This document shows, piece by piece, positions 4,164 to 23,601 of a DNA stretch of 64,000 nt; position 1 is the stretch's first letter, and each line of letters begins with the position of its first letter. Location: contig NZ_BDBD01000026.1 in assembly GCF_001612805.1 (NCBI RefSeq), positions 62,001 to 126,000 on the forward strand, read 5' to 3'. The translations under genes and the position numbers were made by a program. Origin of the DNA: Nocardia coubleae NBRC 108252 (GTDB taxonomy: Bacteria > Actinomycetota > Actinomycetes > Mycobacteriales > Mycobacteriaceae). The notes beneath the pieces were generated by a model. That model was not told the DNA's origin. It ran no database searches and saw nothing but the letters and a program-made list of their open reading frames with translations.

Positions 4164-4208
4164 CGTTTCTACTCTCCTACGGTCTGGTCGGGTCCGCTGC
4201 GCGTACCG

Positions 4209-5486: not shown

Positions 5487-5579
5487 CGCAGACACTCCAG
5501 GGTCGAGACAGTGAGCAGCAGCACAGTGCGTCGGTGCAGGGGCAAACATACAGGATTTGTGGCGGCGCGGGCGCCGCGT

Positions 5580-5707
5580 GTTCGCGGCCCCGCCGGTCCC
5601 GACGATCAGGTACCGTGGCTTGCTCCTTCGTCGCCTACGCCACGGCACCTGATCGTCGGGACGGCCGCGAACCGCCGCTGCGCGGCGATCCCTCCTCGAG
5701 GTCGGGA
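5580..5707. repeat. Long imperfect palindrome plus conserved tail (dispersed repeat, copy A)
   Basis: GTTCGCGGCC (5580-5589) pairs with GGCCGCGAAC (5663-5672). Inside it, a 23-base arm (5596-5618) pairs with 5640-5662 with one mismatch. The apex contains CTCCTTCGTCGCC. The right side continues as a small hairpin (CGCCGC-TGC-GCGGCG) and a CCTCCTCGAGGTCGGG tail. The block from GGCCGCGAAC to the tail recurs at about 44644-44688. It lies between lpqY and the DUF2786 gene. A cruciform or strong RNA hairpin is expected; its role is unknown. Confidence 0.85.
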
Positions 5708-5773
5708 TGTGGTGGCGGGTAGTGCGGTTATGCGTGCTGAAGTGTGTCGGTGTGGTGGCCTACCCTCGATCGA

Positions 5774-6604
5774 GTGACCATTGCATCGTCGGCGGGGCCG
5801 GACCGGATGCTCTCCCGGATCGGTGGTTTGCTGCGCAAGGCCGAGGCCACCGACAACGAGCACGAGGCCGAGGCGTTTCTCGCGGCCGCGCAACGGCTGG
5901 CGACGAAGTCGTCGATCGATCTGGCGGTGGCGCGCTCGCATGTGGCGCGGCGCGAGCGCAGGTCCACCCCGGTGCAGCGGATCATCCCGATCGGGGAGCC
6001 GGGGCGGAAGGGGCTGCGTACCTACGTGCAGCTGTTCGTCGCCATCGCCACGGCCAACGACGTGCGCTGCGATGTCGCGCGCACCTCCTCGCAGGTCTAC
6101 GCCTACGGTTTCGACGCCGATATCGACGCCTGCGAGGCGCTGTACGCGAGTCTGCTTGTGCAGATGGTGCGGGCCTCGGATCATTACATCAAGTCGGGTG
6201 CGTATCGCGAGGCCACGGTGGTGAAGGTGGTCACCGAGAAGCGGTTCGGCCGCACGGTGCGCCGCAAGGTGCAGGCCCCGGTCGCCGGTGTGACGGCGCG
6301 ACTGAATTTCCAGATGGCGTTCGCGGCGCGGATCGGCGCGCGACTGGCCGAGGTGAAGGCCGAGGTGGTCGCCGAGGAATCGGCGGTCGAGTCGACCGGA
6401 ACCGCACTCGCCCTGCGCGACAAGGAACTCGCCCTCACCGACTTCTACACCGCCACCTCGGAAGCGCGCGGCACCTGGCGCGGACCGCAGACCTCCACCG
6501 GCCATTCGGCCGCGGCCCGGCAGGCGGGCGACCGGGCGGGCCGCAACGCCCGCCTCGGCCCCTCCACCGAACTACCCGCCGCACGCGGCGAACTCACGGG
6601 ATGA
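5774..6604 (+). CDS. DUF2786 domain protein
   Basis: About 276 residues. The N-terminal part (MLSRIGGLLRKAEATDNEHE, then EAFLAAAQRLATK) is the DUF2786 domain, whose biochemical role is unknown. The rest is a mostly helical region with several basic stretches and a polar, probably disordered C-terminus. GTG 5774 is taken as the start; in-frame GTG codons at 5744 and 5750 are possible and no convincing ribosome site decides. It overlaps the next gene by four bases (ATGA), so the two are co-translated. The same two-family pairing is known in mycobacteria (Rv0184/Rv0185 type). Confidence 0.82.
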   Translation: MTIASSAGPDRMLSRIGGLLRKAEATDNEHEAEAFLAAAQRLATKSSIDLAVARSHVARRERRSTPVQRIIPIGEPGRKGLRTYVQLFVAIATANDVRCDVARTSSQVYAYGFDADIDACEALYASLLVQMVRASDHYIKSGAYREATVVKVVTEKRFGRTVRRKVQAPVAGVTARLNFQMAFAARIGARLAEVKAEVVAEESAVESTGTALALRDKELALTDFYTATSEARGTWRGPQTSTGHSAAARQAGDRAGRNARLGPSTELPAARGELTG

Positions 6605-7143
6605 ACCGCGAGCCCGACGATGTCTCCGGTCCGGCTCCACGACGCGACACCCAGCGGGCGCGGGTGTACGACGCCGAGCAGTTGGTGCGCGGTGTCTTCG
6701 ACCGCGCCGAGGAATTCGGGCATCGCACTGTCGATATCTACGGTTCGCAGGTGACCTTGCCCGTCGAGCGGCGATTCGCGTCGGTGGAATCGGTGCAGAG
6801 TTATGTCGACAAGGTGCTCGCACTGAATTGGGTTCGAGCCCAATGGGATCGGGCGGCGATTTCCGTGCGGGTCCGTGCGCGGGCGGGCACGGCTGCGGCA
6901 CACTACGAACGTGCCGCTGCCGTGCTGGCCGTCCCACTCCATACCGGCGCCACCGCGTGGGCGCTGCGCGAACTGGTTGTTCTGCACGAACTCGCCCATC
7001 ATTTGGCGCCGACCCCCGACGAAGTGTCGCACGGACCCGAATTCTGCACTCGCTATGCGGAATTGGCCGACGGCGTGATCGGTCCCGAAGCGGCTCTGCT
7101 GATCCGGGCGACATTCGCCGGTTGCGGAGTCCGCTTCGGGTGA
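6601..7143 (+). CDS. Putative HEXXH metallohydrolase (TIGR04338-like)
   Basis: A 180-residue soluble protein with a zinc-peptidase-like motif, HELAHH, followed about 14 residues on by HGPEF, the arrangement expected for two His and one acidic ligand. There is no signal peptide, so it should act in the cytoplasm. Its start overlaps the DUF2786 gene (ATGA). The combination matches a conserved actinobacterial pair; substrate and function are unknown. Proteolytic activity is inferred from the motif only. Confidence 0.8.
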   Translation: MNREPDDVSGPAPRRDTQRARVYDAEQLVRGVFDRAEEFGHRTVDIYGSQVTLPVERRFASVESVQSYVDKVLALNWVRAQWDRAAISVRVRARAGTAAAHYERAAAVLAVPLHTGATAWALRELVVLHELAHHLAPTPDEVSHGPEFCTRYAELADGVIGPEAALLIRATFAGCGVRFG

Positions 7144-7148
7144 GCCGC

Positions 7149-7394
7149 CTATCGGTTTCCGGTGCTGCCCGGGGCGCTACCGCGTCCGCCCGACCCCTGT
7201 CCGCCCGGGGCGGGAGAGGTGCAGGATTTGCTGTCTGTGCAGGGAGAACTGCTCGTCGAACCGCCACGCCCGCCCCCGCTCTGCGAGCCGTGAGCCGCGG
7301 CGTAACTCGTCTGCTCGAATGTCGCCGCGGCGGCCGCACCGGCCCCCATCAGGCTGAACGCGGCGATCATCGTGGCGGCAATTGCTGTCTTCAT
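7149..7394 (-). CDS. Small secreted Gly/Ser-rich peptide
   Basis: An 81-residue protein with a clear signal peptide (MKTAIAATMIAAFSLMGAGA, cleavage likely after an Ala run near residue 24). The mature part is short and disordered, rich in Gly, Ser and Pro, with two cysteines (PCTDSKSC) that could form a disulfide. AGGGG lies just upstream of the ATG. It converges on the HEXXH gene with only five bases between. No known family is recognised. Confidence 0.7.
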   Translation of the reverse strand: MKTAIAATMIAAFSLMGAGAAAAATFEQTSYAAAHGSQSGGGRGGSTSSSPCTDSKSCTSPAPGGQGSGGRGSAPGSTGNR

Positions 7395-7530
7395 TGTTTC
7401 CCCTTTGTTCTCGGCTACGAGTTGATCGTGCGGGAAGGGGACTAATGAATTCTCAACGGCCGCTTGTAGATAAGGCTCGAGGCTCCCGGCGCATGAGCAC
7501 CGGGACCTCGATTCGACGGGGTGTTGCCGA

Positions 7531-7953
7531 TCAGTCGTCGGCGACCTGGACGGCGACGTCGATATTGCCGCGGGTGGCGTTGGAGTAGGGGCACACCTGG
7601 TGCGCCTGGTCGGCCAGCTGCTGTGCTTCCTCGCGGGTGAGGTGGGGGAGGGTGACCTCGAGGGTGACGGCGAGCTGGAAGCCGCCCTTGTCGTTCGGGC
7701 CGATCGAAACCTGCGCGCCCACCGCCGAATCGGCGATATTCGCGCCTGCCTTCTTGCCGACCAGGCGCAGCGCGGAGTGGAAGCACGCGGCGTAACCGGC
7801 CGCGAACAGCTGCTCGGGGTTGGTGCCCGCGCCGTCGCCGCCCATTTCCTTCGGCGGGGCGAGCACCACGTCGAGCTTGCCGTCGGTGGTGCGGGCGGAG
7901 CCGGTGCGGCCTTCGCCGGTGGCAAGGGCTTCGGCGGTGTAGAGAACCTGCAT
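7531..7953 (-). CDS. ohr: Organic hydroperoxide resistance protein Ohr
   Basis: Thiol peroxidase of the OsmC/Ohr family that reduces organic and fatty-acid hydroperoxides in the cytoplasm. It has 140 residues, the normal size, and both reactive cysteines (Cys57 in AACFHS and Cys121 in VCPYSN). It lies eight bases after ohrR on the same strand, and the two form one operon whose only clear control site is the OhrR-type palindrome upstream of ohrR. Confidence 0.95.
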   Translation of the reverse strand: MQVLYTAEALATGEGRTGSARTTDGKLDVVLAPPKEMGGDGAGTNPEQLFAAGYAACFHSALRLVGKKAGANIADSAVGAQVSIGPNDKGGFQLAVTLEVTLPHLTREEAQQLADQAHQVCPYSNATRGNIDVAVQVADD

Positions 7954-7961
7954 GGGGAGTC

Positions 7962-8393
7962 TCATTTCTCGATGAGGGAATCGGTCAGTTTGCGGAGCAG
8001 AGTGCGGAGGGCGGCGGCTTCGTCGCCGGTCAGGCCCGCTGCTCGAGCCATTTCCGTGGGGATGGCGCAAGCTCGGGCGCGGACGGCCCGACCGTGCTCG
8101 GTGAGCACGATGTCGACGCGGCGTTCGTCGTCGGCCGCGCGTCTGCGCTGCACGAACCCGGTTGCTTCCAGTCGCTTGAGCAGTGGTGACAGGGTGCCGG
8201 AGTCGAGCTCGAGCGCCCTGCCGAGTTCGCCGACGCTGCGGCCGTCGCGTTCCCACAGCGCCAGCATCACCAGGTATTGCGGGTAGGTGAGTCCTAGTTG
8301 TTCCAGTTTCGGACGGTAGACCGCCGTCATCGCTCGCGAGGCCGCGTAGAGCGGGAAGCACAGCTGCTCGTCGAGGGTGAGTCCGTCGGTCAT
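7962..8393 (-). CDS. ohrR: Organic hydroperoxide sensor/repressor OhrR (MarR family)
   Basis: MarR-family winged-helix repressor, 143 residues. Cys12 (in [12 protein letters not shown]) matches the peroxide-sensing cysteine of OhrR, and the wing segment ([19 protein letters not shown]) is typical. An in-frame ATG seven codons upstream is possible, but it lies close to the operator. It should repress ohrR-ohr until its cysteine is oxidised by an organic peroxide. Confidence 0.93.
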
Positions 8394-8408
8394 GTTGGCA
8401 ACTGTAGC

Positions 8409-8425
8409 GCACAATTAAGTTGTGC
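8409..8425. promoter_or_regulatory. OhrR operator
   Basis: GCACAATTAAGTTGTGC is a near-perfect palindrome with six-base arms, 15 bases before the ohrR start. Its core (ACAATT-A-AGTTGT) fits the classical OhrR box TACAATTNAATTGTA. Autoregulation of ohrR-ohr follows directly. Confidence 0.8.
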
Positions 8426-8480
8426 ACAACTGAATAGTCGAGTGCTCTCCGGTCGGTGGTCGTACCGGTGTGGTCGGCGT

Positions 8481-9467
8481 CTACGAAACGGAGCCGGACG
8501 TCTGCGTGTCCTCTAGCAACGCGCGCACCCGCTCGTACCGTCGCAGCCACCACCGCACCCGCTCGGCATCCGGATGCCGGTATCGATCCATCGCCGCCGG
8601 CTCGGGCTCCGGCGCACTGGTCGGCACCGTCAACCACCCGTCGACCGGGCGCAGCGAGTCCGCGACCAGATCACCTTCGAACAGCGCGAGAGTGCCCAGA
8701 CCACAGGCGAATTCGAGATCCGGCAGCGTTCCGGCCAGAGCGATCTGGGCTGCCAGCCCCACACTCGTCTCCAGTGCTGACGACACCACCGTTGGCAGCC
8801 CCGCGGCCTCGGCAACCGCGAGCGCCCGCCGCACCCCACCGAGCGGCGTGCATTTGAGCACCGCCACATCCGCCGCCCCCGCCACCGCGACGCGCAGCGG
8901 ATCCTCCGCCCGCCGAATCGACTCGTCGGCCGCGATCGGCACCGAAACCCGCGCCCGCACCTCCGCGAGTTCCTCGATACTCCGGCACGGCTGCTCGACG
9001 TACTCCAATCCGCCCGCCGCCGAATCTATTTCCCGAATTCGCCGCACCGCCGTCTCGACATCCCACACCGCATTGGCATCGATCCGGACGGCGCCGGAAT
9101 CCCCGAGCGCCGCCCGCACCGCCGCCACCCGCGCCAGGTCCTCGGCTAGCGAATCAGGATGATCGGCGACCTTCACCTTCGCTGTCGCACATCCGGATTC
9201 ACGGACGATTCGTGCCGCACGCTCGGGATCTACGGCAGGCACGATGCAATTCACCGGTACCCGCTCCCGCACTGGCGCGGGCCACCCGATCGTCGCCTGC
9301 TCGACCGCGGTAGCCAACCACCCCGCCGCCTCCCGATCGTCGTACTCGGGAAACGCGCAGAACTCCCCCCACCCGTTTTCCCCCCGAATCAACATCCCCT
9401 CGCGCACGGTGATCCCCCGAAACCGCGTACGCAGCGGAATCGCATAAACGAAGGTCTCGAAGTCCAC
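8481..9467 (-). CDS. menC: o-Succinylbenzoate synthase
   Basis: Enolase-superfamily enzyme that dehydrates SHCHC to o-succinylbenzoate in menaquinone synthesis. The 328-residue protein keeps the KxK acid/base pair (Lys97, Lys99), the three metal ligands (Asp130, Glu158, Asp181) and the second catalytic lysine (Lys205 in LKCTPLGG). The start is GTG; an ATG five bases upstream is out of frame. No other men gene lies next to it. OSBS relatives can also act as N-acylamino-acid racemases. Confidence 0.9.
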   Translation of the reverse strand: MDFETFVYAIPLRTRFRGITVREGMLIRGENGWGEFCAFPEYDDREAAGWLATAVEQATIGWPAPVRERVPVNCIVPAVDPERAARIVRESGCATAKVKVADHPDSLAEDLARVAAVRAALGDSGAVRIDANAVWDVETAVRRIREIDSAAGGLEYVEQPCRSIEELAEVRARVSVPIAADESIRRAEDPLRVAVAGAADVAVLKCTPLGGVRRALAVAEAAGLPTVVSSALETSVGLAAQIALAGTLPDLEFACGLGTLALFEGDLVADSLRPVDGWLTVPTSAPEPEPAAMDRYRHPDAERVRWWLRRYERVRALLEDTQTSGSVS

Positions 9468-9624
9468 GCCATCACCCTAAGCGTTGCGCAGAATCGGACA
9501 GGGTGACCTGCGCTGCCTACTTGTCCGCCGGACCGTAGAAGTCAGGGCGCAGGCCAGACCACAGAAACGAGCGCGGTCGATACGTCGCGCCGGTGACGGG
9601 TCTCGACCGTAGCCGAGGACGACC

Positions 9625-9660
9625 GTCGGCGGCGGCATCCGCGTGGACACCGCCGCCGAC
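9625..9660 (-). terminator. GC-rich hairpin after the thiolase gene
   Basis: Eleven-base perfect arms (GTCGGCGGCGG and its complement, 9625-9635 and 9650-9660) with a 14-base loop, six bases after the thiolase stop. There is no T-run, as is common for actinobacterial terminators. Confidence 0.5.
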
Positions 9661-9665
9661 CGCAC

Positions 9666-10835
9666 TCACAATCTTTCGATGATGGTCGCGTTGGCGAGCC
9701 CGCCCGCTTCGCACATGGTCTGCAAGCCGTAACGCGCGCCACGCTGGTGGAGGGCATGGACCAGCGTTGTCATCAGCCGTGCCCCGGAGGCACCCAGCGG
9801 GTGGCCGATGGCGATGGCACCGCCGTTGACATTCACCTTGCTCAGGTCGGCGCCGGTTTCCTGCGCCCAGGCCAGGACGACGGGCGAGAACGCCTCGTTG
9901 ATCTCGATCAGATCGATGTCGGCCAGGTCGAGGCCCGCCCGGCGCAGCACTTTCTCGGTCGCGGGGATCACCGCGGTGAGCATGAGCAACGGGTCGTCGC
10001 CCGCGACGGCGAAGCTGTGCAGCCGGGCGAGTGGGCGCAGGCCGAGCTGCGCGGCCCGCTCGCCCGACATGATGAGCACGGCCGAACTGCCATCGCTGAC
10101 CTGGCTGGCGGAGGCGGCGGTGATCTCCCAGCCGATCTGCGGGAAGCGCGCCGCCATGGCCGGGTCGTAGTAGGCGGGCTTGAGCTTCGCCAGCGTTTCG
10201 AGTGTGGAGCCGACGCGAATGCCCTCGTCGGCGGACAGCCCGTTCAGCGGGGCGAGTTCGGCGGCGAAGAGCCCGTCTTTGGTTGCACGCGCGGCCTTTT
10301 CGTGGCTGCTCAACGCGAACTCGTCGAGCTGGGTGCGGCTCAGCCCCCACTTGGCGGCGATCAGCTCGGCGCTGATGCCCTGCGGGACCAGGTCCTCCGG
10401 ATACCGTTGCGCGAAGGCGACCCCGGACAGGTCGGCGGCCCCGAGCGCACTGGAACCCATCGGAACTCGCCCCATGGACTCGACGCCCGCCGCGACGACG
10501 ATGTCGTACGCGCCCGCGATCACGCCCTGCGCGGCGAAATGGATGGCCTGCTGGCTGCTTCCGCACTGCCGGTCGACGGTGGTCGCCGGCACCGACTCGG
10601 GGTATCCGGCGGCCAGTGCGGCCCGCCGGGTCATGTTCACGCCCTGCTCGCCGACCTGGGTGACGATGCCGCCGATCACGTCGTCGACCAGTGCCGGGTC
10701 GATGCCGCTGCGCTCGATCACCGCGCGCAGGCTGTGCGCGAGCAGGTCGACGGGATGGACGTCGTGGAGTGCGCCGTCGGGTTTGCCCCGCCCGATGGGG
10801 GTGCGTACCGCTTCGACGATGACCGCGTCTCGCAT
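9666..10835 (-). CDS. Acetyl-CoA acetyltransferase / 3-ketoacyl-CoA thiolase
   Basis: A 389-residue thiolase. The nucleophilic Cys91 (VDRQCGSSQQ), the NEAF loop (about 313-316), His345 (GHPLGASG) and Cys375 (CEAGGL) are all present, so it should be active, either joining two acetyl-CoA or cleaving 3-ketoacyl-CoA. GAGG lies about eight bases before the ATG. It stands alone and is divergent from an HxlR regulator. The paired palindrome between them suggests that the regulator controls it. Chain-length preference cannot be read from the sequence. Confidence 0.92.
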   Translation of the reverse strand: MRDAVIVEAVRTPIGRGKPDGALHDVHPVDLLAHSLRAVIERSGIDPALVDDVIGGIVTQVGEQGVNMTRRAALAAGYPESVPATTVDRQCGSSQQAIHFAAQGVIAGAYDIVVAAGVESMGRVPMGSSALGAADLSGVAFAQRYPEDLVPQGISAELIAAKWGLSRTQLDEFALSSHEKAARATKDGLFAAELAPLNGLSADEGIRVGSTLETLAKLKPAYYDPAMAARFPQIGWEITAASASQVSDGSSAVLIMSGERAAQLGLRPLARLHSFAVAGDDPLLMLTAVIPATEKVLRRAGLDLADIDLIEINEAFSPVVLAWAQETGADLSKVNVNGGAIAIGHPLGASGARLMTTLVHALHQRGARYGLQTMCEAGGLANATIIERL

Positions 10836-10850
10836 GGGAGTCCTCTTCCC

Positions 10851-10876
10851 TCTGGCTATATCAGACAATAGCCAGA
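10851..10876. promoter_or_regulatory. Inverted repeat between thiolase and HxlR genes
   Basis: TCTGGCTAT (10851-10859) and ATAGCCAGA (10868-10876) are perfect nine-base arms around an eight-base spacer, in the short divergent intergenic region. It is the likely operator for the HxlR regulator and would control both genes. Confidence 0.65.
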
Positions 10877-10918
10877 CTAGACGCTAACTATCATCTGCTC
10901 AAGTCAGGGAGGCGTATG

Positions 10919-11452
10919 ATGTCGGCTATGGCAGCGGTGATGGAAGGACCCTTGGCCGATCTGAGCAGGTGGGAGACCGAAGGCTGTTCGATCGCCAGAG
11001 CCATGGAGCTCATCGGCACCCGCTCGGCCGTCCTCATCCTGCGCGAGGCCTACTACGGCACCACCCGCTTCGACGGCTTCGCCCGCCGCGTCGGCATCAC
11101 CGACGCGGCGGCCGCGAGCCAACTCCGCAAACTCACCGCGGCGGGAATCCTGGAAAAGCGCCCCTACCAGGAGGAAGGCAAGCGCACCCGGCACGAGTAC
11201 GTCCTCACCCAGATGGGCAGGGACCTACTCCCGGTGGTCGTGGCGCTGTGGCAGTGGGGCGACACCTACCTCCAGCCGGGCCCGGCGCCACTGCTGCGCG
11301 TCGACACCGAAACCGGCGAGCCGGTGCGGGCTCGGCTCACCACCCCCGCCGGCACTCCGGTCGAACTCGAACAGCTCACGGTCCGCGTCAACCCGGACTA
11401 CCTGCGTGCCCGCAAGAAGGCAGGCCGACCGCCGAACGACACCGGTGCCTGA
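10919..11452 (+). CDS. HxlR-family transcriptional regulator
   Basis: About 177 residues with an HxlR winged helix (CSIARAMELIGTRSAVLILR, then FARRVGITDAAAASQLRKL) and an extended C-terminal part. AGGGAGG lies six bases before this ATG; an ATG three bases earlier is too close to it. It is divergent from the thiolase with a palindrome between them. The TetR-like name is ruled out by the HxlR signature. The signal it senses is unknown. Confidence 0.88.
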   Translation: MSAMAAVMEGPLADLSRWETEGCSIARAMELIGTRSAVLILREAYYGTTRFDGFARRVGITDAAAASQLRKLTAAGILEKRPYQEEGKRTRHEYVLTQMGRDLLPVVVALWQWGDTYLQPGPAPLLRVDTETGEPVRARLTTPAGTPVELEQLTVRVNPDYLRARKKAGRPPNDTGA

Positions 11453-11462
11453 TACGACGACA

Positions 11463-11489
11463 GCCGACCGCACCGATGATGCGGTCGGC
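11463..11489. terminator. Bidirectional hairpin between HxlR and sugC
   Basis: GCCGACCGCA (11463-11472) and its complement (11480-11489) form perfect ten-base arms between two convergent genes (stops at 11452 and 11513). Confidence 0.6.
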
Positions 11490-11512
11490 ATGTCAGGTCG
11501 TCGAGCGGCGGA

Positions 11513-12595
<1,083 letters not shown>

Positions 12596-12736
12596 GCGTA
12601 GATCATTCTTCCCATCCCGGCAGGAACGTGCCGGACGATCCGAGAACAGGGTCGGCTCGGATCGTAGCGGCCCGGTGCTCCGGACGTGCTGCGGTAGCCT
12701 CGGTCCCGGAGCCCACCGAGTACCGAGGAGCGCGGG

Positions 12737-13531
12737 ATGAGTCGTCCAGTTCGTATCGGAGTCCAGCTTCAGCCTCAGCACGCACCGGATTACGGGCTGA
12801 TTCGTGATGCGGTGTTGCGGGCCGAGGACGCCGGGGTGGACATCGTCTTCAACTGGGACCATTTCTATCCGCTCACCGGTGATCCGGCGGGCGCGCATTT
12901 CGAATGCTGGACCATGCTCGGCGCGTGGGCCGAGCAGACCGAGCGGGTCGAGTTCGGTGCGCTGGTCACCGGCGGCGGCTATCGCAATCCCGATCTGCTC
13001 GCCGATATGGCGCGCACGGTCGACCGGATCAGCGGCGGCCGGTTGATCCTCGGCATCGGTGCGGGCTGGTTCCAGCGCGACTACACCGAATACGGGTACG
13101 AATTCGGTACGGCCGGTAGCAGGCTGAACCTGTTGAAGGACAACATGTCCCGGCTCACCGCCCGCCTGCGCGTGCTCAGCCCGCCGCCGGTGCGTGATAT
13201 CCCGATCCTCATCGGTGGCGGCGGGGAGCGCAAAACGCTGCGCCTGGTCGCCGAGTACGCCGACATCTGGCATTCCTTCGTCGATGTGGACACGCTGGCG
13301 CACAAGAACAAGATCCTGGCCGAGCACGCGGCCGCCGTCGGCACCGACGAGAGCCGGATCGAACGGTCGGTGCAGTGGCAGGGCCGGGCACAGGCCGAAC
13401 AGTTGCGCGCGGCAGGTGTGAGCCTGTTCACCATCGGCGTCTCCGGACCCGACTACGACCTCGCCGAGGTGCGCCGCGCGATCGAGTGGCGCGACGAAGT
13501 GAACCCGGAATTACTGGAAGGCCTGGCGTAA
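12737..13531 (+). CDS. LLM-class F420-dependent oxidoreductase
   Basis: A 264-residue luciferase-like monooxygenase-fold protein. The N-terminal strand (RIGVQLQPQHAPDYG), the VTGGGYRNPDLLADMARTVD segment and GRLILGIGAGW, which line the cofactor pocket, fit the F420-binding branch common in mycobacteria and nocardiae. GAGGAG lies just upstream of the ATG. It appears to be a single gene. Substrate is unknown. Confidence 0.87.
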   Translation: MSRPVRIGVQLQPQHAPDYGLIRDAVLRAEDAGVDIVFNWDHFYPLTGDPAGAHFECWTMLGAWAEQTERVEFGALVTGGGYRNPDLLADMARTVDRISGGRLILGIGAGWFQRDYTEYGYEFGTAGSRLNLLKDNMSRLTARLRVLSPPPVRDIPILIGGGGERKTLRLVAEYADIWHSFVDVDTLAHKNKILAEHAAAVGTDESRIERSVQWQGRAQAEQLRAAGVSLFTIGVSGPDYDLAEVRRAIEWRDEVNPELLEGLA

Positions 13532-13610
13532 AATCTTTGACCTGCCCGGATGCACCACACCAGGCGCGGGTGGCGAGTGGGGACACGGGCGGGCATTAGG
13601 GTCTATCGGC

Positions 13611-15407
13611 ATGGCAGGTGTGCGTGCTGTGCGAACCCGGGCGCGGATTGCCGCGCTGTTGCTCCTCGTCGGCGTGGCCGCGACCGGATGTGGTGGCTCC
13701 GGTGGCGAGACGTCGACGGGTGACCTGTGCTCGCCTCCCGGCCAGAGCGCGGCGGCCGCGGCGCCGACCAACCTCGCCTCCTCCGAGACGGCGGGCACCG
13801 ACCGCTACACGACCCCGACCACGGTGCCGCTCGAGTCGATCGATACCAGCAAGCTCGGCCTGCTCAGTCCGGGCAAGCTCAGCGTCGGTACCCTCTCGGA
13901 CGCGCCGCCGAGCATCTGCGTGAACGGCCAGGGCACCTTCACCGGCTTCGACAACGAACTGCTGCGCGAGATCGGCGCGAAACTCGGTCTGCAGGTGGAG
14001 TTCTCGGGCACCGAGTTCGCCGGGCTGCTCGCCCAGGTGGCGGGCAAGCGCTTCGATGTCGGTTCGTCCAACATCACCACCACCGATGCCAGGCGCGAAC
14101 TCGTCGGCTTCACCAACGGCTACGACTTCGGCTATTTCTCGCTGGTCGTGCCGCAGGGTTCGGCGATCAAGGGGTTCGGTGACCTGAACGCCGGTTCGCG
14201 GATCGCCGTGGTGCAGGGCACCGTGCAGGACGAGTTCGTGGTGAACCAGCTGCGCCTGGACCCGGTGAAGTTCCCCGACTACAACACCGCGTACGCGAAT
14301 CTCAAATCCGGCCAGGTCGACGCCTGGGTCGCCCCGTCGGCGCAGGCCGAGGGCGCGATCAAACCGGGCGACGGAATCGTGGTGTCGGAGAACACCTTCA
14401 GCCTCGACAACTTCGTCGGCTATGCGGTGGCCAAGAACAACCAGCCGCTCATCGACGCCCTCAACGCGGGCTTGGACGCGGTGATCGCCGACGGCACCTA
14501 CGCGCGCCTGTACGCCGACTGGGTACCACGCGAGCTACCACCGGGCTGGAAGCCGGGCTCCAAAGCCGCACCGGCGCCGGAGCTTCCGGACTTCGCCGCC
14601 ATCGCCGCGAGCAAGCAGCCCGGCGAAGCCGAAGTGGCACAGCAGAAATCGACCATCCAGCAGTTGAAGGACACCTTCTTCGACTGGTCGCTGTACACCA
14701 AGGCCTTCCCCGACCTCATCAAGACGGGTCTGCCGAATACGCTGATCCTGGCCGTGGTTTCGGGTGTCCTCGGCACCGTGCTGGGCATGCTGCTCGCGGT
14801 GATGGGTATCTCGCGCACCCGCTGGTTGCGCTGGCCCGCACGCGTGTACACCGACATCTTCCGCGGTCTGCCCGCCGTGGTCATCATCCTGCTGATCGGG
14901 CTCGGAATCGGCCCGGTGGTTCGCAATGTCACCGGCGGCAACCCGTACTGGCTCGGCGCGGTGGCGTTGGCGCTGTTGGCGGCGGCGTACATCGGTGAGA
15001 TCTTCCGGTCCGGTATCCAGTCGGTGGAGCCGGGTCAGCTCGAGGCGGCCCGCGCGATCGGGTTCGGGTACCGCCAGGCGATGACCCTTGTCGTGATCCC
15101 GCAGGGCGTGCGCCGGGTGCTGCCCGCGCTGATGAACCAGTTCATCGCCCTCATCAAGGACTCCTCGCTCATCTACTTCCTCGGGTTGCTCGCCTCCCAG
15201 CGTGAGCTGTTCGCGGTCGGCCGCGACCTCAACGCCCAGACCGGCAACCTGTCCCCGCTGGTCGCGGCGGGTCTGATGTACCTGGTGCTGACCATCCCGC
15301 TCACCCACCTGGTGAACTACATCGACCGCCGGATGCGCACCGGAAAACCGGTTCCCCCGGTCGATCCGCTCGAACAGGCCGTCATCACGGAAGGCCGGGG
15401 CGCATGA
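13611..15407 (+). CDS. Polar amino-acid ABC importer: fused binding protein and permease (GlnP-type)
   Basis: A 598-residue fusion. The signal peptide ends in lipobox ATGC (Cys27). Residues about 85-315 form a family 3 solute-binding domain (VGTLSDAPPSICVNGQGTF, FTGFDNELLREIGAKLGL). A linker leads to a HisM/GlnP-type permease from about 365 (PNTLILAVVSGVLGTVLGM, then GQLEAARAIGFGYRQAM as the EAA loop). The binding domain would be tethered outside the cell and pass substrate to its own permease. glnQ follows 31 bp later. Glutamine or glutamate is the likely cargo. Confidence 0.9.
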   Translation: MAGVRAVRTRARIAALLLLVGVAATGCGGSGGETSTGDLCSPPGQSAAAAAPTNLASSETAGTDRYTTPTTVPLESIDTSKLGLLSPGKLSVGTLSDAPPSICVNGQGTFTGFDNELLREIGAKLGLQVEFSGTEFAGLLAQVAGKRFDVGSSNITTTDARRELVGFTNGYDFGYFSLVVPQGSAIKGFGDLNAGSRIAVVQGTVQDEFVVNQLRLDPVKFPDYNTAYANLKSGQVDAWVAPSAQAEGAIKPGDGIVVSENTFSLDNFVGYAVAKNNQPLIDALNAGLDAVIADGTYARLYADWVPRELPPGWKPGSKAAPAPELPDFAAIAASKQPGEAEVAQQKSTIQQLKDTFFDWSLYTKAFPDLIKTGLPNTLILAVVSGVLGTVLGMLLAVMGISRTRWLRWPARVYTDIFRGLPAVVIILLIGLGIGPVVRNVTGGNPYWLGAVALALLAAAYIGEIFRSGIQSVEPGQLEAARAIGFGYRQAMTLVVIPQGVRRVLPALMNQFIALIKDSSLIYFLGLLASQRELFAVGRDLNAQTGNLSPLVAAGLMYLVLTIPLTHLVNYIDRRMRTGKPVPPVDPLEQAVITEGRGA

Positions 15408-16249: not shown

Positions 16250-16546
16250 ATGACCACCGCGCACGCCGAACATCCGCAGCACACCCACGTCCACGGCCCC
16301 ACCTGCGGGCACGTCGCCGTCCCCCACCAGGACCACGTCGACTACGTCCACGACGGGCACTTACACCGCGAGCACGAGGGCCACTTCGACGAGTGTGAAC
16401 CCTCGTCCCACGTCGCCTGCTCCAACCACGACCACGTCCACGGCCCCGGCTGCGGGCACGTCGCCGTCCCGCACAACGACCACGTCGACTACATCCACGA
16501 CGGCCACCGCCACGCACCCCACGACGGGCACTACGACGACCACTGA
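16250..16546 (+). CDS. Histidine-rich putative metal-binding protein with tandem duplication
   Basis: A 98-residue soluble protein in which 26 residues are His, plus four Cys and many Asp/Glu. Two copies of a unit of about 25 residues (HVHGP.CGHVAVPH.DHVDY, then HDGH.H) are joined by a Cys-containing linker (ECEPSSHVAC). GGAGGAG precedes the ATG. The composition points to Zn, Ni or Cu storage or chaperoning. It lacks a signal peptide and membrane segments. It follows glnQ by 85 bp, but a shared function is doubtful. Confidence 0.8.
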   Translation: MTTAHAEHPQHTHVHGPTCGHVAVPHQDHVDYVHDGHLHREHEGHFDECEPSSHVACSNHDHVHGPGCGHVAVPHNDHVDYIHDGHRHAPHDGHYDDH

Positions 16547-16722: not shown

Positions 16723-17970
16723 TCAATCGGTGACAGTGGCGAAGGCTGACCACAGGAGCGGGGAGTTCTCGGGGGACGGGGTGGTTTGCCATGCTGCGAG
16801 CTGGGTTCGTTGCCAGTCCAGGATCGTCGTCACCGGGGTGGGGGAGTCGTGGGCGGTGTCGACGGCTCGGATGGCGGATTGGAGTGGGTGGCCGGTTGTC
16901 GCTGTGAGGGTGTGGAAGGCGTGGTCGGTGGGGAGTGGCCAGCGGGTGGCGGTGACGAGTTCGGCGCCTGCCGACAGGGCTGCGGTTGTCAGGCCGAGGG
17001 CCTCGGTGAAGCGCAGGTCGCCACCGCTTTCGCAGGCGATGAGCGCTACCCGGCTCGGCATCGGCCACAGGTCGCGGCCGGGGACCGGTGCGGGGTCGAG
17101 GGTGTAGGTGCCGAGCAGCAGGTCCTTGGCCGACAGCGGGCGGTGTGAGCGGGTCGGCGCCGCGAAACCGCGGGTGTCGGTGGTGCACGTCAGGTGCAGT
17201 TGCGCGTGCTCGCTTTCCCCGGACTCCGGTGCGGGCGCGGTGACATGCCCGACGTAGATCAGGCGGCTCGCGCCCGCGCGGAGTGCGTCGGACAGCCAGT
17301 CGCGGTCCAGATCGGTGCGCCGGAACAGTTCCACCGGATCGGCGACCGTGGGCACGATGCGGTCACCGTAGGTACTGAAGTGTTGCGCCACAATGGAATC
17401 CGCACTCGGGCGGCCGAGCACGGACCCGAGCTCGGAGTCCGCGCGGAAACCGGGAACTCGCGGATCCAGCACCGCCACCACCGGCAGGTCCCGAGTCTCG
17501 CTCCAGCGCCGCACCATTCGATCTGGCGCCCTAACCGCCGACACCGGCGCCAGCAGGCTCACATCGGCGATATCGAGCAGCCGGATCGCCGGATCGGGCG
17601 CGATGATCTCCCACGGAACCTGGGCGAGCCGAGGCGACGGCTGAATCCGCAGATGCGGCCGGATGCCCCGCTGCGACAGTTCGTACAGTTGCACTGCCAG
17701 CCCGTATGGGAGCAGTGCCCGCGACAATGCCTGCGCCAGTGCGTTTTCCGCCTCGGGATCGACCAGTGCGCCCTCGGTCATCACCCGGCTCAACTCGTCC
17801 GGGCGGCTGGGATCAGGCACAGCGGCGGCCAGCTGTCGCAACACCGCACGCACATCATCACGAGGCAGCATGGCCACCCCGCGCGCCGAGGTGTCGTCGA
17901 CCCACCGCCAGGACACATACACGTCGCCCGCGTCGGCCATCCGGATCAGCGCGGTCGGTTGTTCCGTCAC
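16723..17970 (-). CDS. CHAT-domain caspase-like peptidase
   Basis: A 415-residue protein ending in a CHAT (caspase/separase-type) peptidase domain. The dyad is visible: His242 in LIYVGHVT and Cys313 in VALIACESGG. The downstream segment GAELVTATRWPLPTDHAF matches the family's conserved Trp-containing strand. The N-terminal 110 residues are a separate, unrecognised region. The start is GTG, overlapping the TPR stop by four bases (GTGA). It is the last gene of a four-gene operon. Known CHAT proteins are proteases switched on by partner proteins, often TPR, in defence or cell death; that role here is inference. Confidence 0.85.
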   Translation of the reverse strand: MTEQPTALIRMADAGDVYVSWRWVDDTSARGVAMLPRDDVRAVLRQLAAAVPDPSRPDELSRVMTEGALVDPEAENALAQALSRALLPYGLAVQLYELSQRGIRPHLRIQPSPRLAQVPWEIIAPDPAIRLLDIADVSLLAPVSAVRAPDRMVRRWSETRDLPVVAVLDPRVPGFRADSELGSVLGRPSADSIVAQHFSTYGDRIVPTVADPVELFRRTDLDRDWLSDALRAGASRLIYVGHVTAPAPESGESEHAQLHLTCTTDTRGFAAPTRSHRPLSAKDLLLGTYTLDPAPVPGRDLWPMPSRVALIACESGGDLRFTEALGLTTAALSAGAELVTATRWPLPTDHAFHTLTATTGHPLQSAIRAVDTAHDSPTPVTTILDWQRTQLAAWQTTPSPENSPLLWSAFATVTD

Positions 17971-19478
17971 AGCGCGATCACCCGGTGGTCGCGGATCAGG
18001 CGCCCATACCGCTGCTCGGCGTGGGAAATGTAGTCCGACAGCAGGATTCGACCGCGATCAGAGAGGCGTGGTGGTGGGGCGATGCGGATTCCCGCTGCGG
18101 CGGCTACGTCGGCGAGGGCCGTACCCAGGTGTAGAGCGGGGGCCGAGTCGTCGGAGGCCGGTGGGTCGAGCAGCTCGAATTCGAGGGTGGCCGAGCGTGG
18201 TTCGATCACCGACTCGACATCGAGGGCTGTTCCCGCACAACGGCTGTCGATAAGGTCCGCGACCAACTGCCCGTCGCCGGTGCGGGCCGCGCACTGAAAG
18301 GCCAGGCGCATGGCGGGTTCGGCGACCGTGCGGTGCCAGTGTTCGCGCTGGTTCCCGTTGGGCAGAGTGTGGCGAACCGCATCGATAGCCAGCGCGGCGG
18401 GGACCGCGAGGGTGAGCGCGCGCGACAATGTGGCCGGATCGGGATGAGCGTCGGCCGCGATCGTCCGGTGCAGCAATTCGGCGTGCCAGTAGTCGAGCTG
18501 GGCGCAGTGCATTCCGAGACCGTGTTCGGCGTAGACCTCGAACGACATCGCGAGCAGTTCCTCCGCGAGGGCGAGGTCGTCCTCGGCGGCGGCGACCGTT
18601 GCCAGCCGCAACCGCACATCCGCCGCGTCGAGGACCGCACCGGCCTTGTCGAAACGGTCGAGCGCATGCCGATATCGGGTCCGCGCGGTGTCGAAGTCGC
18701 CCCTGCTTTCGGCCAGGTAGCCGTAGGTTTTCGCGCCGATACCCGCGCGATGCTCCAGCTCGGCTCCCTCGAAGAATCCCTGGCTGGCCCCCAACGGTTC
18801 CTCGGCATCGTCGTAGCGGCCCGACCGCACGAACATGATGGCCAGGTTCTGCTGGGTTTCGGCCACGGCCGCGGCATCGCCCGCCGCCTCGAATGCGGCC
18901 AGCGCCTGCCTCGCGAAATCGACGGCCAGTTCACGTCGGCCGATCTCGAACGACGCGGCCGCCAGATTCATCAACGGATGACCGATCAGCTCGGGCGCCA
19001 ACCGGCGGGTCACGTCGAGCGACTCGGCGGCGAGCTCATGGGCCCGCGCCCACTGCTGGCGGTGCAGTGCGACCGCCGTCAGCGAGAGCAGGCAGGCCAC
19101 CGGCAACAGGCCTTGGTCGGTGCCGTCGGCGAGCAGCGACCGGGCCTCTTCCAGCGTTTCCTGGGCGGAATCGAGCTCACCCAGATGCTGGTAGGCCTGC
19201 GAAAGATTGACCAGCGCGGCCGGTCGTTGACGAGCCGCGTCGGCGGGCAGCACGGCAAGCGCGGTCCGCATCAGGCCCACCGACCGCCGATGTTCACCCA
19301 GCTCGTCGGCCATGCTCGCCGCATTGATCAGCGCCGCGCTGCGCAGTCGGGGCGGCGCGTCCTGCGCGGCGCGCTCGAAGATCTCCAGTGCTCCGAGCAC
19401 GTCACCACGCTGGTAGGCCGCGTAGCCCGCGGCGAGCTGGTCGTCGTCGCCGTCCGATGTTCTACCGGTCGCTGCCAT
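17967..19478 (-). CDS. Tetratricopeptide-repeat protein, partner of CHAT peptidase
   Basis: A 503-residue all-helical protein. Repeated TPR units span about residues 14-340 (for example AAGYAAYQRGDVLGALEIF, LVNLSQAYQHLGELDSAQ, LAESRGDFDTARTRYRHAL). A further helical segment contains a single DSRCAG motif, and the C-terminus is basic. AAGGAG lies before the ATG. It ends inside the CHAT start (GTGA), so the two should be made in equal amounts, consistent with a TPR scaffold or sensor that holds the protease. No DNA-binding or ATPase domain is seen. Confidence 0.85.
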   Translation of the reverse strand: MAATGRTSDGDDDQLAAGYAAYQRGDVLGALEIFERAAQDAPPRLRSAALINAASMADELGEHRRSVGLMRTALAVLPADAARQRPAALVNLSQAYQHLGELDSAQETLEEARSLLADGTDQGLLPVACLLSLTAVALHRQQWARAHELAAESLDVTRRLAPELIGHPLMNLAAASFEIGRRELAVDFARQALAAFEAAGDAAAVAETQQNLAIMFVRSGRYDDAEEPLGASQGFFEGAELEHRAGIGAKTYGYLAESRGDFDTARTRYRHALDRFDKAGAVLDAADVRLRLATVAAAEDDLALAEELLAMSFEVYAEHGLGMHCAQLDYWHAELLHRTIAADAHPDPATLSRALTLAVPAALAIDAVRHTLPNGNQREHWHRTVAEPAMRLAFQCAARTGDGQLVADLIDSRCAGTALDVESVIEPRSATLEFELLDPPASDDSAPALHLGTALADVAAAAGIRIAPPPRLSDRGRILLSDYISHAEQRYGRLIRDHRVIAL

Positions 19479-19526
19479 CGCATCGGCTCCTTGTCGTCCG
19501 GGCGCGCTCGGTGATCCGTGCGCGCA

Positions 19527-20594
19527 TCAGAAGTCGTCATCGGATTCGGCGGCTGCGGATTCGGCGGCCAACAGCTGGTCACCCGCCTGTCCGGTGAGTC
19601 GGCTGCGGGCGAAGTCGCGGATGCGCGCACGCATGGCCGACTCGTCGGGATATGTGATGGCAGGGCCGACACCGGGGACGAAAACCGAGAGAGTGGTGAA
19701 GGTTTCGACGCTCTCGGCCAGCTGTATCTCCGCCGACCAGCTGTCCGTCCGCAGCTGCAGCTCGGCGGTGGCGGCGGCCTCGGTTCCGTTGTCCACATCG
19801 AGGCGGACATGGGGGCGAAGGTGCTCGGGCACGTGGAGTGGGCAGTCCGGCGCAGCAACGACGGTGACCCGTGCCGTCGACATTCCCGAGGACCGGGAGA
19901 CCGTCCAGGACAGCGCATCGGCGCCCGCGTCGAGAATCCCGGGTGGGCATCGCCGCCAGTCCCAGTCACCGCTCCCATGTGCGACGATCAACCCGTCGCC
20001 GGGCTGTTTCCCGCCTGCTGCCAACGCGTAATCATCGGCGCGAGCGGAGGATTCGACAACAGGGCGACCTCGGAGGGAGCTCGACTCGAGGCCTGCGGTT
20101 CGACGAGAACTCAGCTCAGAGATCAACCCCTCGGCATCACCTGGAGTGAACTCGGGCAACTCCGAATCTGCGAGCGCCATTTCGCACATCTCACTGAGCT
20201 GCCCGATTTCCTCGTCCAGTGAGAGATGATCGAGAGCTGGAATACCGTCGACAGTTGACGCAGGCCACCATCGAGAAGCCCAGTGTGCGTACGCAAGTCG
20301 CCGCAAGGCGGCAGCCAGCTCAGGCCGAACCGATTCAGCGGCGATTTCGCCGTCCACCCCGTCTGCCACTGCGAGCGCGACATTCTCCCCATAGACCGCC
20401 CACAGCCACTCCTGCGCGGCTTCGCGATCGTCGATCACAGCAGCAGGCAGCTGCCGATCATCGAGCACGCTCCAGCTGAGGTGCCCACCAACGACTTCGA
20501 GGACCATCGCGTCCAAGGGAGCCAGGGTGTCGGTGACCAGCGGAGTTTCATCAGGAGCGATGGTCAGCAGACCATCGGAGCTGAGCCGAATCAT
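19527..20594 (-). CDS. Uncharacterised protein of the CHAT-TPR operon (355 aa)
   Basis: Not recognised. The N-terminal half (1-155) is mixed alpha/beta with a Trp-rich stretch (WASRWWPAS). A low-complexity linker (about 159-200) leads to a beta-rich half (205-330) with regularly spaced strands (ARVTVVAAPD, HLRPHVRLDVDNGTE). The tail is acidic and ends ESDDDF. There is no signal peptide or membrane segment. The ATG overlaps the upstream stop (TGATG), and 48 bp separate it from the TPR gene. Its fixed place in the operon suggests that it is a regulator, target sensor or substrate of the CHAT peptidase; this is inference. Confidence 0.75.
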   Translation of the reverse strand: MIRLSSDGLLTIAPDETPLVTDTLAPLDAMVLEVVGGHLSWSVLDDRQLPAAVIDDREAAQEWLWAVYGENVALAVADGVDGEIAAESVRPELAAALRRLAYAHWASRWWPASTVDGIPALDHLSLDEEIGQLSEMCEMALADSELPEFTPGDAEGLISELSSRRTAGLESSSLRGRPVVESSARADDYALAAGGKQPGDGLIVAHGSGDWDWRRCPPGILDAGADALSWTVSRSSGMSTARVTVVAAPDCPLHVPEHLRPHVRLDVDNGTEAAATAELQLRTDSWSAEIQLAESVETFTTLSVFVPGVGPAITYPDESAMRARIRDFARSRLTGQAGDQLLAAESAAAESDDDF

Positions 20595-22111
20595 CAACTG
20601 GCCCTCGCTTCCTCGACGTCGTCCATGGCCACGGTGAGCGCCTGCTTCACTCGCGTCCGATGGTCGAGCATCACCGACCGCGCGACCCCGTCGAGCAGAT
20701 CCCACAGCTCGACCGGATCGAACACCGCCAGCTCCCGAACGTCACGTCCGTGCAACCGAACCCACAGTCTGCGCAGGTAGGGCCGCCACGGTGTCCGCAG
20801 CTCAGCGGCGACCACCGCCAGCGGTCCGCTCACCGCCTCACCGAGGTGCACCGAGTAGCGCCGCGCTTGCAGGACGTACGCTTCCCGCCGCCATCGCGCG
20901 TTCACCACCGCGTGCGCCCGCGACCCGAGGCCGGGCTCACCGGCGTCCGCCCGCTGTCCTCTCGAGTCGCACTGCGCAGCGCCGACAGGAACCCGCACCC
21001 CCACGCCGCTCTTCGCCGAAGGTGTAGTGCCGGTATGTAGTCCCGCTTCCGGCCCATCCTGCTCCGATTCCGCAGATCGTTCGCTGCGGTCTCCACGAGC
21101 GCCGGACAACTCCGTCGCGACCAGGTCCCGCGCCGGAGGTACCGCATCCAACGGTGAAAGCCCCAGGGCCAGTTCGCAACCAGCCGCCGCAGTCACGCGA
21201 AGAGACTCGTCGAGCAACCCCCACGGCGAACAACTCCGGTTCACCTCGGTGCTCACCAACGTCGGCAGGTCGGGCAGATCGGTCCGGTCGATGCTGCCCT
21301 GCAGAACGGTGAAGACACGTTCGTAGATGCTCCGGTCGAACGGGAGCGCGAGGGTGGCGGTCGAGGCGGCGGCGCCGACGGCGGGGCGTGGCGGGCACTC
21401 GTGCACGGTCAGGCCCAGGTCGTCGGCTCCGTACCTTGGATGCGCGCGCCACAGTGCGATGCCCCGGTGGGTGCCCACCTTGTCCTCGATCAACTCGTCG
21501 AGCAGCGGCCCGGCGTCGGCGGGGTCGCCCTCGCGGGCCAAAGTGCTCGCGTCGAGTAGTTCAGTCAGCTCGGAGGCGAGGTCGCGCGCACCGGAGTTCG
21601 CCAATGGCCGTGTGCGCCAAGCGGAATCGATGAGCGTTGTCAGCTCGGCAAGCCGGTTCGGTTCGGTCACCAGGTTTTTCAGCGCCGTCGTGGTGCGCCC
21701 GCCCGTTCCCTCGTGTACCTCGCGCAGCACCGCGGCGGCACGCTCGCGGGCATCCGCTCCCGGTTCGCCGTGCAGAGTCGCCAGCTCGAAGCATCGCTGG
21801 AAGTACAGATCCTGCGCGTTGCCCTCGGTGATCCGTAAGGCGCGCCGCGCCTGTTTGAGGACGGTGAACCAGCTCGCGCACGCCCGCAGCGCATCGGAAC
21901 GCGCGAGTACCAGGGAGGTCAGCAAGGTGACGCCGTCGGCGTCGAGAACGCTGCCCGCGCACAGCGGATGCTGCACCGGCCGGATCACCAGCGGATCGAG
22001 GATCAGCTTCACGGTGCGCCGCAACGGCGCACCCTGTGGTCCGCTCAAGGCGTCGACACCGTCGAGCCCGCGCCACACCTCGTCGAGCACCATGGCGCGG
22101 GGTCTTCGCAT
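20594..22111 (-). CDS. Uncharacterised first gene of the CHAT-TPR operon (505 aa)
   Basis: Not recognised. Residues 1-330 are a mostly helical, presumably folded region containing segments such as NAQDLYFQRCFELATLHGEP and SIYERVFTVLQGSID. Residues about 333-398 are a charged, glycine-rich disordered linker. Residues 400-505 form a basic helical C-terminus (WRPYLRRLWVRLHGRD, VFDPVELWDLLDGVARS). No signal peptide or catalytic motif is visible. ATG 22111 or ATG 22093 could be the start; neither has a strong ribosome site. Translation is coupled to the next gene (TGATG). It may sense or be cleaved by the downstream CHAT system; this is inference. Confidence 0.72.
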   Translation of the reverse strand: MRRPRAMVLDEVWRGLDGVDALSGPQGAPLRRTVKLILDPLVIRPVQHPLCAGSVLDADGVTLLTSLVLARSDALRACASWFTVLKQARRALRITEGNAQDLYFQRCFELATLHGEPGADARERAAAVLREVHEGTGGRTTTALKNLVTEPNRLAELTTLIDSAWRTRPLANSGARDLASELTELLDASTLAREGDPADAGPLLDELIEDKVGTHRGIALWRAHPRYGADDLGLTVHECPPRPAVGAAASTATLALPFDRSIYERVFTVLQGSIDRTDLPDLPTLVSTEVNRSCSPWGLLDESLRVTAAAGCELALGLSPLDAVPPARDLVATELSGARGDRSERSAESEQDGPEAGLHTGTTPSAKSGVGVRVPVGAAQCDSRGQRADAGEPGLGSRAHAVVNARWRREAYVLQARRYSVHLGEAVSGPLAVVAAELRTPWRPYLRRLWVRLHGRDVRELAVFDPVELWDLLDGVARSVMLDHRTRVKQALTVAMDDVEEARAS

Positions 22112-22240
22112 TCGACCAGGGTAACCGCAGGTCAGCCGACTGTCCGAGGGAAAACTTGGGATCGGTAGGCGGCGCACGATTTCTACCTTTCTCTCAACGG
22201 GTTCACCGACCCGCTCACACCGAGAGAGAACGGAAACACC

Positions 22241-22753
22241 ATGAACACCAAGCTGATCGCCACCCTCGCCGCCGCCTCCGCCGCGACCGCCCTGTTCGTC
22301 ACCGGCTGCAGCGACACCGGCAGCTCCACCAGCACCCCGTCGAGCACCGCCGCCCCCGTGCCGGCCGCGGGCAAGTCCACCGCCAGCGTCGACGGCAAGG
22401 AACTGACCGCGAAGTTCGACACCACCTGCGCCAAGCAGGCCGGAACCCTGGCACTGGCCCTCACCGACACGGCCAACGCCACCTACGGCAGCCTCTCGGT
22501 GAGCGCGACGCTGGCAGGCGAAACGGTGCAGGCCGTCGCCATCGCGGGCAGCCAGGGCGGATCGAGCGGCATGCCGTACGCCGTGGGCTACGGCAACGGC
22601 CAGCCCGGCGGCTCGGCCACCCTCGCCAAGGACGGCAACACCTTCCGCGTCACCGGCGAGGGCGTCGGCGCCCCCGACATGACCAACCCGCTGGCCGGCC
22701 CGTCGACGGTGAAGTTCGACATCACCTTCGCCTGCTCCACCATCGTCGGCTGA
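22241..22753 (+). CDS. lpqH: LpqH-family (19 kDa antigen) lipoprotein
   Basis: A 170-residue secreted lipoprotein. The lipobox VTGC gives Cys23, followed by a Ser/Thr/Pro-rich stalk and a domain with a conserved cysteine pair (TTCAKQ and FACST) that can form a disulfide, as in the mycobacterial 19 kDa antigen family. It is surface-exposed and its function is not settled. It is divergent from the CHAT operon, with 129 bp of shared upstream DNA. Confidence 0.85.
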   Translation: MNTKLIATLAAASAATALFVTGCSDTGSSTSTPSSTAAPVPAAGKSTASVDGKELTAKFDTTCAKQAGTLALALTDTANATYGSLSVSATLAGETVQAVAIAGSQGGSSGMPYAVGYGNGQPGGSATLAKDGNTFRVTGEGVGAPDMTNPLAGPSTVKFDITFACSTIVG

Positions 22754-22800: not shown

Positions 22801-23601
22801 ATGAAATCCAAGCTGCGTGCGGCCGCGGTCGCCTTCGGAATCCTGGCCATCGGCTACTACCTCTACTACGGCCTCACCTACACGCCCGACGAATTCACCG
22901 GCACCATGCTCGGCTGGGTCGGCCCGCAGATGGCGTTGCCCATCATCGCGCTGACGATCGTGCCGATGGTCTTCGCCTTCACCGGCGACGGCATCTTCGA
23001 GGCCTTCACCGGTCACAACAGCTCGGAGTTCCGCAGCGGTGAGATCGGTATCGGCACCATCACCTCGTTCCGCCAGACCGGGGTGTCGGTCAACGACCAG
23101 CCGCAGGTGCGGATCGAATTCCGCGTCGAAGGCGCCGACGGCAAGACCTTCGACTCCCACGCGAAGATGATCGTGCCGCTCACCGAACTGGCCCTGCTGC
23201 GCCCCGGCGTGGTCCTGCCGGTGCGATACCTGCCCGGCCGCACCGACAAGGTGGAGGTCGACCGCTCCGGCGACGCAGGCGCCGCCCAGCGCGCCATGAA
23301 CGAATCGCTCATCCGCAAGGGCATCACCACCCGCGACAAGCTCGACATCGCCGAACGCGGCATCGCCGCCCAGGCGGTGGTCCGCAGCCTCGATGTGCCC
23401 GGTCGCATCCGCGGCGGCTACACCGAGGTGGTGCTCGGGCTGGTCGTCACCCGCCCCGACGGCAGCACCTTCCAGACCGGCGCCGAGAAGTACCTGCCAC
23501 CGACCGCGATCGGATCGGTGCAGGTGGGACGCATCATCGGCGTCCACTACCTGCCCGGCGACGAACAGGAGGTGGTGATCTCACTGCCCATCAACGCCTG
23601 A
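22801..23601 (+). CDS. Membrane protein with duplicated DUF3592-like beta domain
   Basis: A 266-residue protein with two membrane segments (about 7-25 and 38-60), then two similar beta domains: residues about 80-155 (GTITSFRQTGVSVNDQPQV, LRPGVVLPVRYLPG) and about 190-262 (AVVRSLDVPGRIRGGYTEV, VGRIIGVHYLPGDE). The repeated LPVRYLPG/GVHYLPG motif marks the duplication. CGAGGAGA precedes the ATG. It lies 47 bp after lpqH and probably shares its transcript. Function is unknown. Confidence 0.75.
   Translation: MKSKLRAAAVAFGILAIGYYLYYGLTYTPDEFTGTMLGWVGPQMALPIIALTIVPMVFAFTGDGIFEAFTGHNSSEFRSGEIGIGTITSFRQTGVSVNDQPQVRIEFRVEGADGKTFDSHAKMIVPLTELALLRPGVVLPVRYLPGRTDKVEVDRSGDAGAAQRAMNESLIRKGITTRDKLDIAERGIAAQAVVRSLDVPGRIRGGYTEVVLGLVVTRPDGSTFQTGAEKYLPPTAIGSVQVGRIIGVHYLPGDEQEVVISLPINA

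Follow-up and report, generated by a model that had tools for sequence, protein, structure and literature searches.

A co-inherited six-gene cassette centred on a CHAT peptidase and a TPR protein, with two orphan partner families and an LpqH-type lipoprotein, in Nocardia and Mycobacterium

Introduction

CHAT-type proteases are found encoded beside their presumed substrates, the bacterial gasdermins, and a CHAT gene with unfamiliar neighbours raises the question of which proteins it works with and to what end. Such a gene lies in Nocardia coubleae NBRC 108252, whose genome is close to that of N. ignorata, within a 64,000-nucleotide stretch of contig NZ_BDBD01000026.1 (positions 62,001 to 126,000, forward strand; hereafter the window). 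The first-pass annotation of the window described a four-gene operon, read it as a sense-and-cleave system possibly serving defence, and made this reading depend on the conservation of the companion genes. Here we follow the operon across Nocardia and a class-wide sample of genomes, describe the unit in which it is inherited, and weigh the functions that this unit may have.

Results

The four core genes are all on the minus strand of the window and have the lengths originally given for them: gene 1 (20594-22111, 505 aa) and gene 2 (19527-20594, 355 aa), the former representing an orphan all-alpha family and the latter a second orphan family, a TPR protein (17967-19478, 503 aa; Pfam TPR_12, 1e-19) that is the likely partner of the peptidase, and the CHAT caspase-like peptidase itself (16723-17970, 415 aa; Pfam PF12770, 2e-11). 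Their three junctions (TGATG, 48 bp and GTGA) each match those first proposed, and the CHAT and TPR identities both stand above the Pfam cut-offs. With respect to the nearest relative, dN/dS was 0.13-0.34 across the four genes, which indicates that they are under purifying selection, and hydrophobicity analysis detected zero membrane segments in their products.

The CHAT protein scored 44.2 bits against PF12770 (cut-off 24), its residues 77-412 covering positions 2-286 of the 289 of the profile. The putative catalytic residues, His242 (codon at 17245-17247, minus strand) and Cys313 (17032-17034, minus strand), had been reported as intact and are indeed invariant in 27 of 27 Nocardia orthologues and in all 22 members of a cross-genus set; Cys313 aligns with the cysteine of other CHAT domains, those of CATRA systems included, while His242 was assigned from its position after a hydrophobic strand and not placed by alignment. 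By score and by these residues the protein is a member of the PF12770 peptidase family and a putative protease. TPR and CHAT are separate ORFs in the window and an in-frame fusion in three Nocardia species (L052/L164, L173 and L179), which supports a physical complex of the two proteins. In a Rhodococcus opacus record (L157, 13879-16563) about 2.7 kb lie between the TPR and CHAT genes. Three Nocardia genomes carry second, more distant CHAT genes (L055, 6496-9403; L056, 9806-11296; L057, 9939-11540), that of L055 adjoining a TPR gene; no gene 1 or gene 2 was recognisable in their neighbourhood, and they are possibly sister systems with other partners.

The first two proteins had been said to match no known family, and this holds after searches with profiles and structures: Pfam, NCBIfam and PADLOC returned no family for either, the 28 orthologues scanned singly against Pfam gave nothing credible, and sequence searches of the PDB with deep profiles were empty or insignificant. 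Gene 1 orthologues share 56-94% identity inside Nocardia and about 37-54% outside. The protein consists of two conserved helical regions connected by a hypervariable linker (residues 316-398; 20918-21166, minus strand), and a fold search of its low-confidence model (65.2) against the PDB gave no match. The linker ranges from 19 to 231 aa over 70 loci, has a pLDDT mostly below 50, and shows a dN/dS of 0.89 vs. 0.14 for the remainder of the gene in comparison with a close relative; it is a candidate for an exposed or cleavable segment. A frameshift at about 20900-21150 was considered and rejected, since the region is hypervariable genus-wide and the closest relative stays in frame through in-frame indels.

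Gene 2 gave an AlphaFold2 model with a mean pLDDT of 79.9, in which an alpha/beta N-terminal part, a beta-sandwich C-terminal part and a short terminal helix are predicted; this structure had no significant match among PDB folds. The protein ends in a conserved tail, LAE.xAAA...D-F-COOH (19530-19565, minus strand; Mycobacterium version FLAEILAAESDY), whose terminal DF was found in 28 of 28 Nocardia sequences and in 76 of 79 genome loci, and which in Mycobacterium has a similar form closed by a terminal Y (13/13 loci). Docking peptides typically have C-terminal tails of this kind, and acidic C-termini are known ligands of TPR domains, so that the tail of gene 2 may be a docking element. The L183 and g60 loci encode a gene 2 product without the conserved tail, and docking of this kind would therefore not be universal.

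A CHAT orthologue over most of the length was present in 28 of 36 Nocardia genomes, with a contig-end fragment in one more, and every orthologous locus of the genus had the order gene 1-gene 2-TPR-CHAT. Among 297 genomes of the class sample, gene 1 was detected in 22, the CHAT subfamily of this cassette in 23, and both in 21. The lone genome with gene 1 only holds a short remnant; as to the two with CHAT only, one holds a half-length remnant and the other has a divergent gene 1 and gene 2 beside CHAT. The decayed genes lie at L202 (G180; gene 1 fragment, 9704-10342, in a region also containing glnA-like and lipA-like genes) and at L247 (G077; half-length CHAT, 9395-9955). In a distant family, L246 (G296, 2462-15014) combines CHAT with a divergent gene 1 and gene 2, a TPR gene on the opposite strand and an extra gene of 381 aa; immediately past these lies the gene for a 1449-aa FtsK/FHA ATPase.

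All 17 complete class-sample loci outside Nocardia contain the four genes in one of two orders. The order gene 1-gene 2-TPR-CHAT is shared by Nocardia, Rhodococcus, Antrihabitans and the g42 and g60 loci; Rhodococcus and Antrihabitans also appear among the named records with cassette genes, the Rhodococcus species R. jostii and R. opacus both being carriers. In 13 of 13 Mycobacterium loci TPR-CHAT comes before a gap that is followed by gene 1-gene 2, the genus (g23 in our sample) being taken as Mycobacterium because its loci encode a PPE-family protein and a 19-kDa lipoprotein antigen. Because only the arrangement of the two pairs changes, gene 1-gene 2 and TPR-CHAT behave as modules that stay together. 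The four-gene core was also found on a 1.27-Mb linear plasmid of Streptomyces. The companions are thus conserved beside CHAT and TPR as a unit in several genera, as the first-pass annotation had required.

The inherited unit is larger than the core. Divergent from the operon lie a fifth gene (22241-22753, plus strand), coding for an LpqH-type 19-kDa lipoprotein (Pfam Myco_19_kDa, PF05481; 81.1 bits, cut-off 23), which is a member of the LpqH/19-kDa family, and a sixth, O6 (22801-23601, plus strand), coding for a membrane protein of 266 aa with a hydrophobic N-terminal segment and without a Pfam family. In 34 Nocardia genomes the lipoprotein was present in exactly the 27 CHAT-positive ones and absent from the seven CHAT-negative ones, and O6 was present in 26 of the 27 and in none of the seven; these genomes are related and the seven negatives may reflect few losses, so the counts do not amount to 34 independent tests of co-occurrence. 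All seven negatives keep the outer flank genes, except for PhoX in G022. Two of them (G019 and G012) show a clean empty site, the ABC-ATPase gene all but adjoining PhoX at the place taken up in the window by about 7.5 kb with the six genes, and in three others (G018, G029 and G013) unrelated genes occupy the site, which in Nocardia may be one of gene exchange. In three Nocardia genomes (L264, L265 and L266) the site holds, among others, an MFS-like transporter and a regulator-like gene. A short His-rich ORF (16250-16546) that lies between the cassette and the ABC-ATPase gene is not counted as a cassette gene, since similar ORFs flank the cassette-free sites L266 and L268.

The lipoprotein gene adjoins the operon both in the Nocardia loci and in 13 of 13 Mycobacterium loci. 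By their flanks on either side the Mycobacterium loci form three groups that have nothing in common with one another, and the lipoprotein, being kept at these three unrelated positions, travels with the operon. In Mycobacterium, 12 of 13 loci carry an O6 homologue, whole or partial, in the interval that separates CHAT from gene 1, several of the copies being fragments; in L183 O6 is divergent and lies beside gene 1. The g42 and g60 loci yielded no lipoprotein gene, and the L184 and g60 loci no O6, so neither is essential to the core. That the two are chance neighbours was rejected on the three Mycobacterium positions, the joint loss in Nocardia and the empty sites that keep their flanks. The six genes are one co-inherited cassette, gained and lost together and kept together after rearrangement: the proposed operon stands as a conserved unit of four genes, and its limits have to be widened to take in the divergent lipoprotein and O6.

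Upstream of the lipoprotein gene lies a promoter-like element, TTGGGATCGGTAG (22156-22168, plus strand), whose core GGGATCGGTAG recurs at this place in 13 of 13 Mycobacterium loci, where TTTGGGATCGGTAGC is the typical form, and in 11 of 12 aligned Nocardia loci. The cassette copy of the exact TTGGGATCGGTAG is the sole one in five of the genomes checked; one further copy occurs in the window's genome and six in G062, and these other copies (L251, L255, L257, L259 and L261-L263) lie mostly shortly before genes for secreted or membrane proteins. This suggests a promoter element of an envelope-related gene set, that is, an undescribed regulon. On the other side, a putative -10 element, TACCCT (TAACCT in relatives; 22118-22123, minus strand), stands six bases before the ATG of gene 1 and is conserved in 12 aligned Nocardia intergenic regions; from this position we infer that gene 1 may be transcribed leaderless. 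In Mycobacterium the lipoprotein and TPR genes have a strong hairpin between them, together with what looks like a start of its own, and the two genes may therefore belong to separate transcripts.

The expected setting in a defence island was not borne out. The ten flanking ORFs encode transporters, PhoX, a luciferase-like monooxygenase, a glycosidase-type protein and proteins without assignment; PADLOC returned generic ABC-ATPase matches and one weak oxidoreductase match for them, hence no defence genes, and zero matches for the four core proteins. Cassette copies were not found in phages or viral contigs. A defence role is possible, and it gains no positive support here.

Discussion

The reading of the operon as a sense-and-cleave system is a reasonable hypothesis. 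As the best explanation of the whole cassette we propose, tentatively and with less than even confidence, an envelope-coupled TPR/CHAT protease switch of six genes. At rest, the TPR and CHAT proteins would be joined in a single inactive complex, to which gene 2 would bind by the conserved C-terminal tail, most likely in a TPR groove or at the active site; gene 1, as the substrate or effector, would be cut in its hypervariable linker upon activation of the complex. Through the lipoprotein and O6 the system would have its input or its output at the cell envelope, and the trigger would for this reason probably be an envelope event, be it damage, phage adsorption or injection, or stress, with growth arrest, death or an envelope response as the outcome.

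The same genes could serve as an anti-phage or abortive-infection system, in which case TPR, gene 1 or gene 2 would sense a phage trigger and so activate CHAT, the cleavage of a toxin or of an essential protein would stop growth, and the lipoprotein and O6 would act as sensors of adsorption or injection, or as surface blockers. In favour of this, proteins of the CHAT-TPR kind act as effectors of defence in other settings (Craspase; PMC9729208; PMC10028731), the cassette comes and goes as a block, leaving a clean site, and changes position, and its core sits on a Streptomyces linear plasmid. A prevalence of about 80% at one fixed position in Nocardia, together with the flanks, the PADLOC results and the viral searches described above, speaks against this role, and we consider it a real but somewhat unlikely rival. 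If the protease instead regulated the lipoprotein or other envelope proteins routinely, as part of envelope maintenance or lipoprotein handling, the strict co-inheritance with the lipoprotein and O6, the purifying selection on the core genes and the preference of the promoter-like element for secreted and membrane proteins would be explained; the core, however, occurs without the lipoprotein in other families and its four proteins have no membrane segment by hydrophobicity, which makes this account improbable.

It could also be asked whether the cassette belongs, as a divergent form, to the CATRA ternary conflict systems (CATRA-N, PF20269; CATRA-C, PF20270; CATASP, PF20271; PMC8195603), gene 1 or gene 2 then being a CATRA protein that has escaped recognition, given that in the CATRA loci of actinomycetes, too, a TPR-CHAT protein occurs beside dedicated partners. 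Membership was rejected by hhalign profile comparison with CATRA-N and CATRA-C proteins from the class genomes, which gave non-significant probabilities of 1.3% and 0.2%; moreover, CATRA-N is absent from the window's genome, Pfam detected no CATASP in the cassette and the scanned flanking proteins, and no glycosyltransferase effector was found. We regard this origin as very improbable, and retain the envelope-coupled switch as the preferred reading.

A more specific form of the preferred switch, which we deem rather unlikely as a whole, is that Mycobacteriaceae possess an undescribed envelope surveillance system, in which an LpqH-family surface lipoprotein and a membrane protein would work with a cytosolic caspase-like protease complex and with proteins of two new families, the cleaved effector being one of these. 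Were it true, the LpqH-family lipoprotein would gain a working partner system. The cassette brings two protein families and a defined unit of six genes to the few bacterial caspase-like protease systems, in a host group that includes Mycobacterium, and a family of lipoproteins familiar chiefly for its antigenic role is now linked to a protease module, which makes its purpose experimentally approachable. Related species that cleanly have or lack the unit as a whole offer ready-made natural comparisons.

With respect to known systems, Craspase (type III-E CRISPR), in which TPR-CHAT (Csx29) acts with Cas7-11 on the substrate Csx30, resembles the cassette in its TPR and CHAT protease. Cleavage splits Csx30 in two at a site that is not conserved (PMC11106740), and the proposed cleavable, variable linker of gene 1 recalls this by analogy only; on the other hand, no Cas family occurs in the ten ORFs flanking the cassette and the partner genes are unrelated by the searches made. 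The gasdermin-linked proteases share the layout of a CHAT-type protease beside a presumed substrate, but genes 1 and 2 have no gasdermin family match and the fold search with gene 2 was insignificant. Both systems have only their CHAT (and TPR) parts in common with the cassette. The fifth gene belongs to the LpqH/19-kDa family (PF05481), as does its Mycobacterium copy, with the difference that here the lipoprotein is genetically tied to a CHAT protease module. Our literature searches found no paper linking the two, and no description of the cassette, of the promoter-like element or of a mycobacterial CHAT/TPR system. The nearest known layout is that of CATRA, likewise an actinomycete locus with a TPR-CHAT protein and dedicated partner proteins, yet by sequence profiles the cassette fails the test of the defining domains: its genes 1 and 2 are not CATRA-N, CATRA-C or CATASP, it is without the GT4 effector, its TPR and CHAT proteins are usually separate, and it is tied to a lipoprotein and a membrane protein. 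We see in the cassette a system built on CHAT and TPR, to which new partners and an envelope arm are attached.
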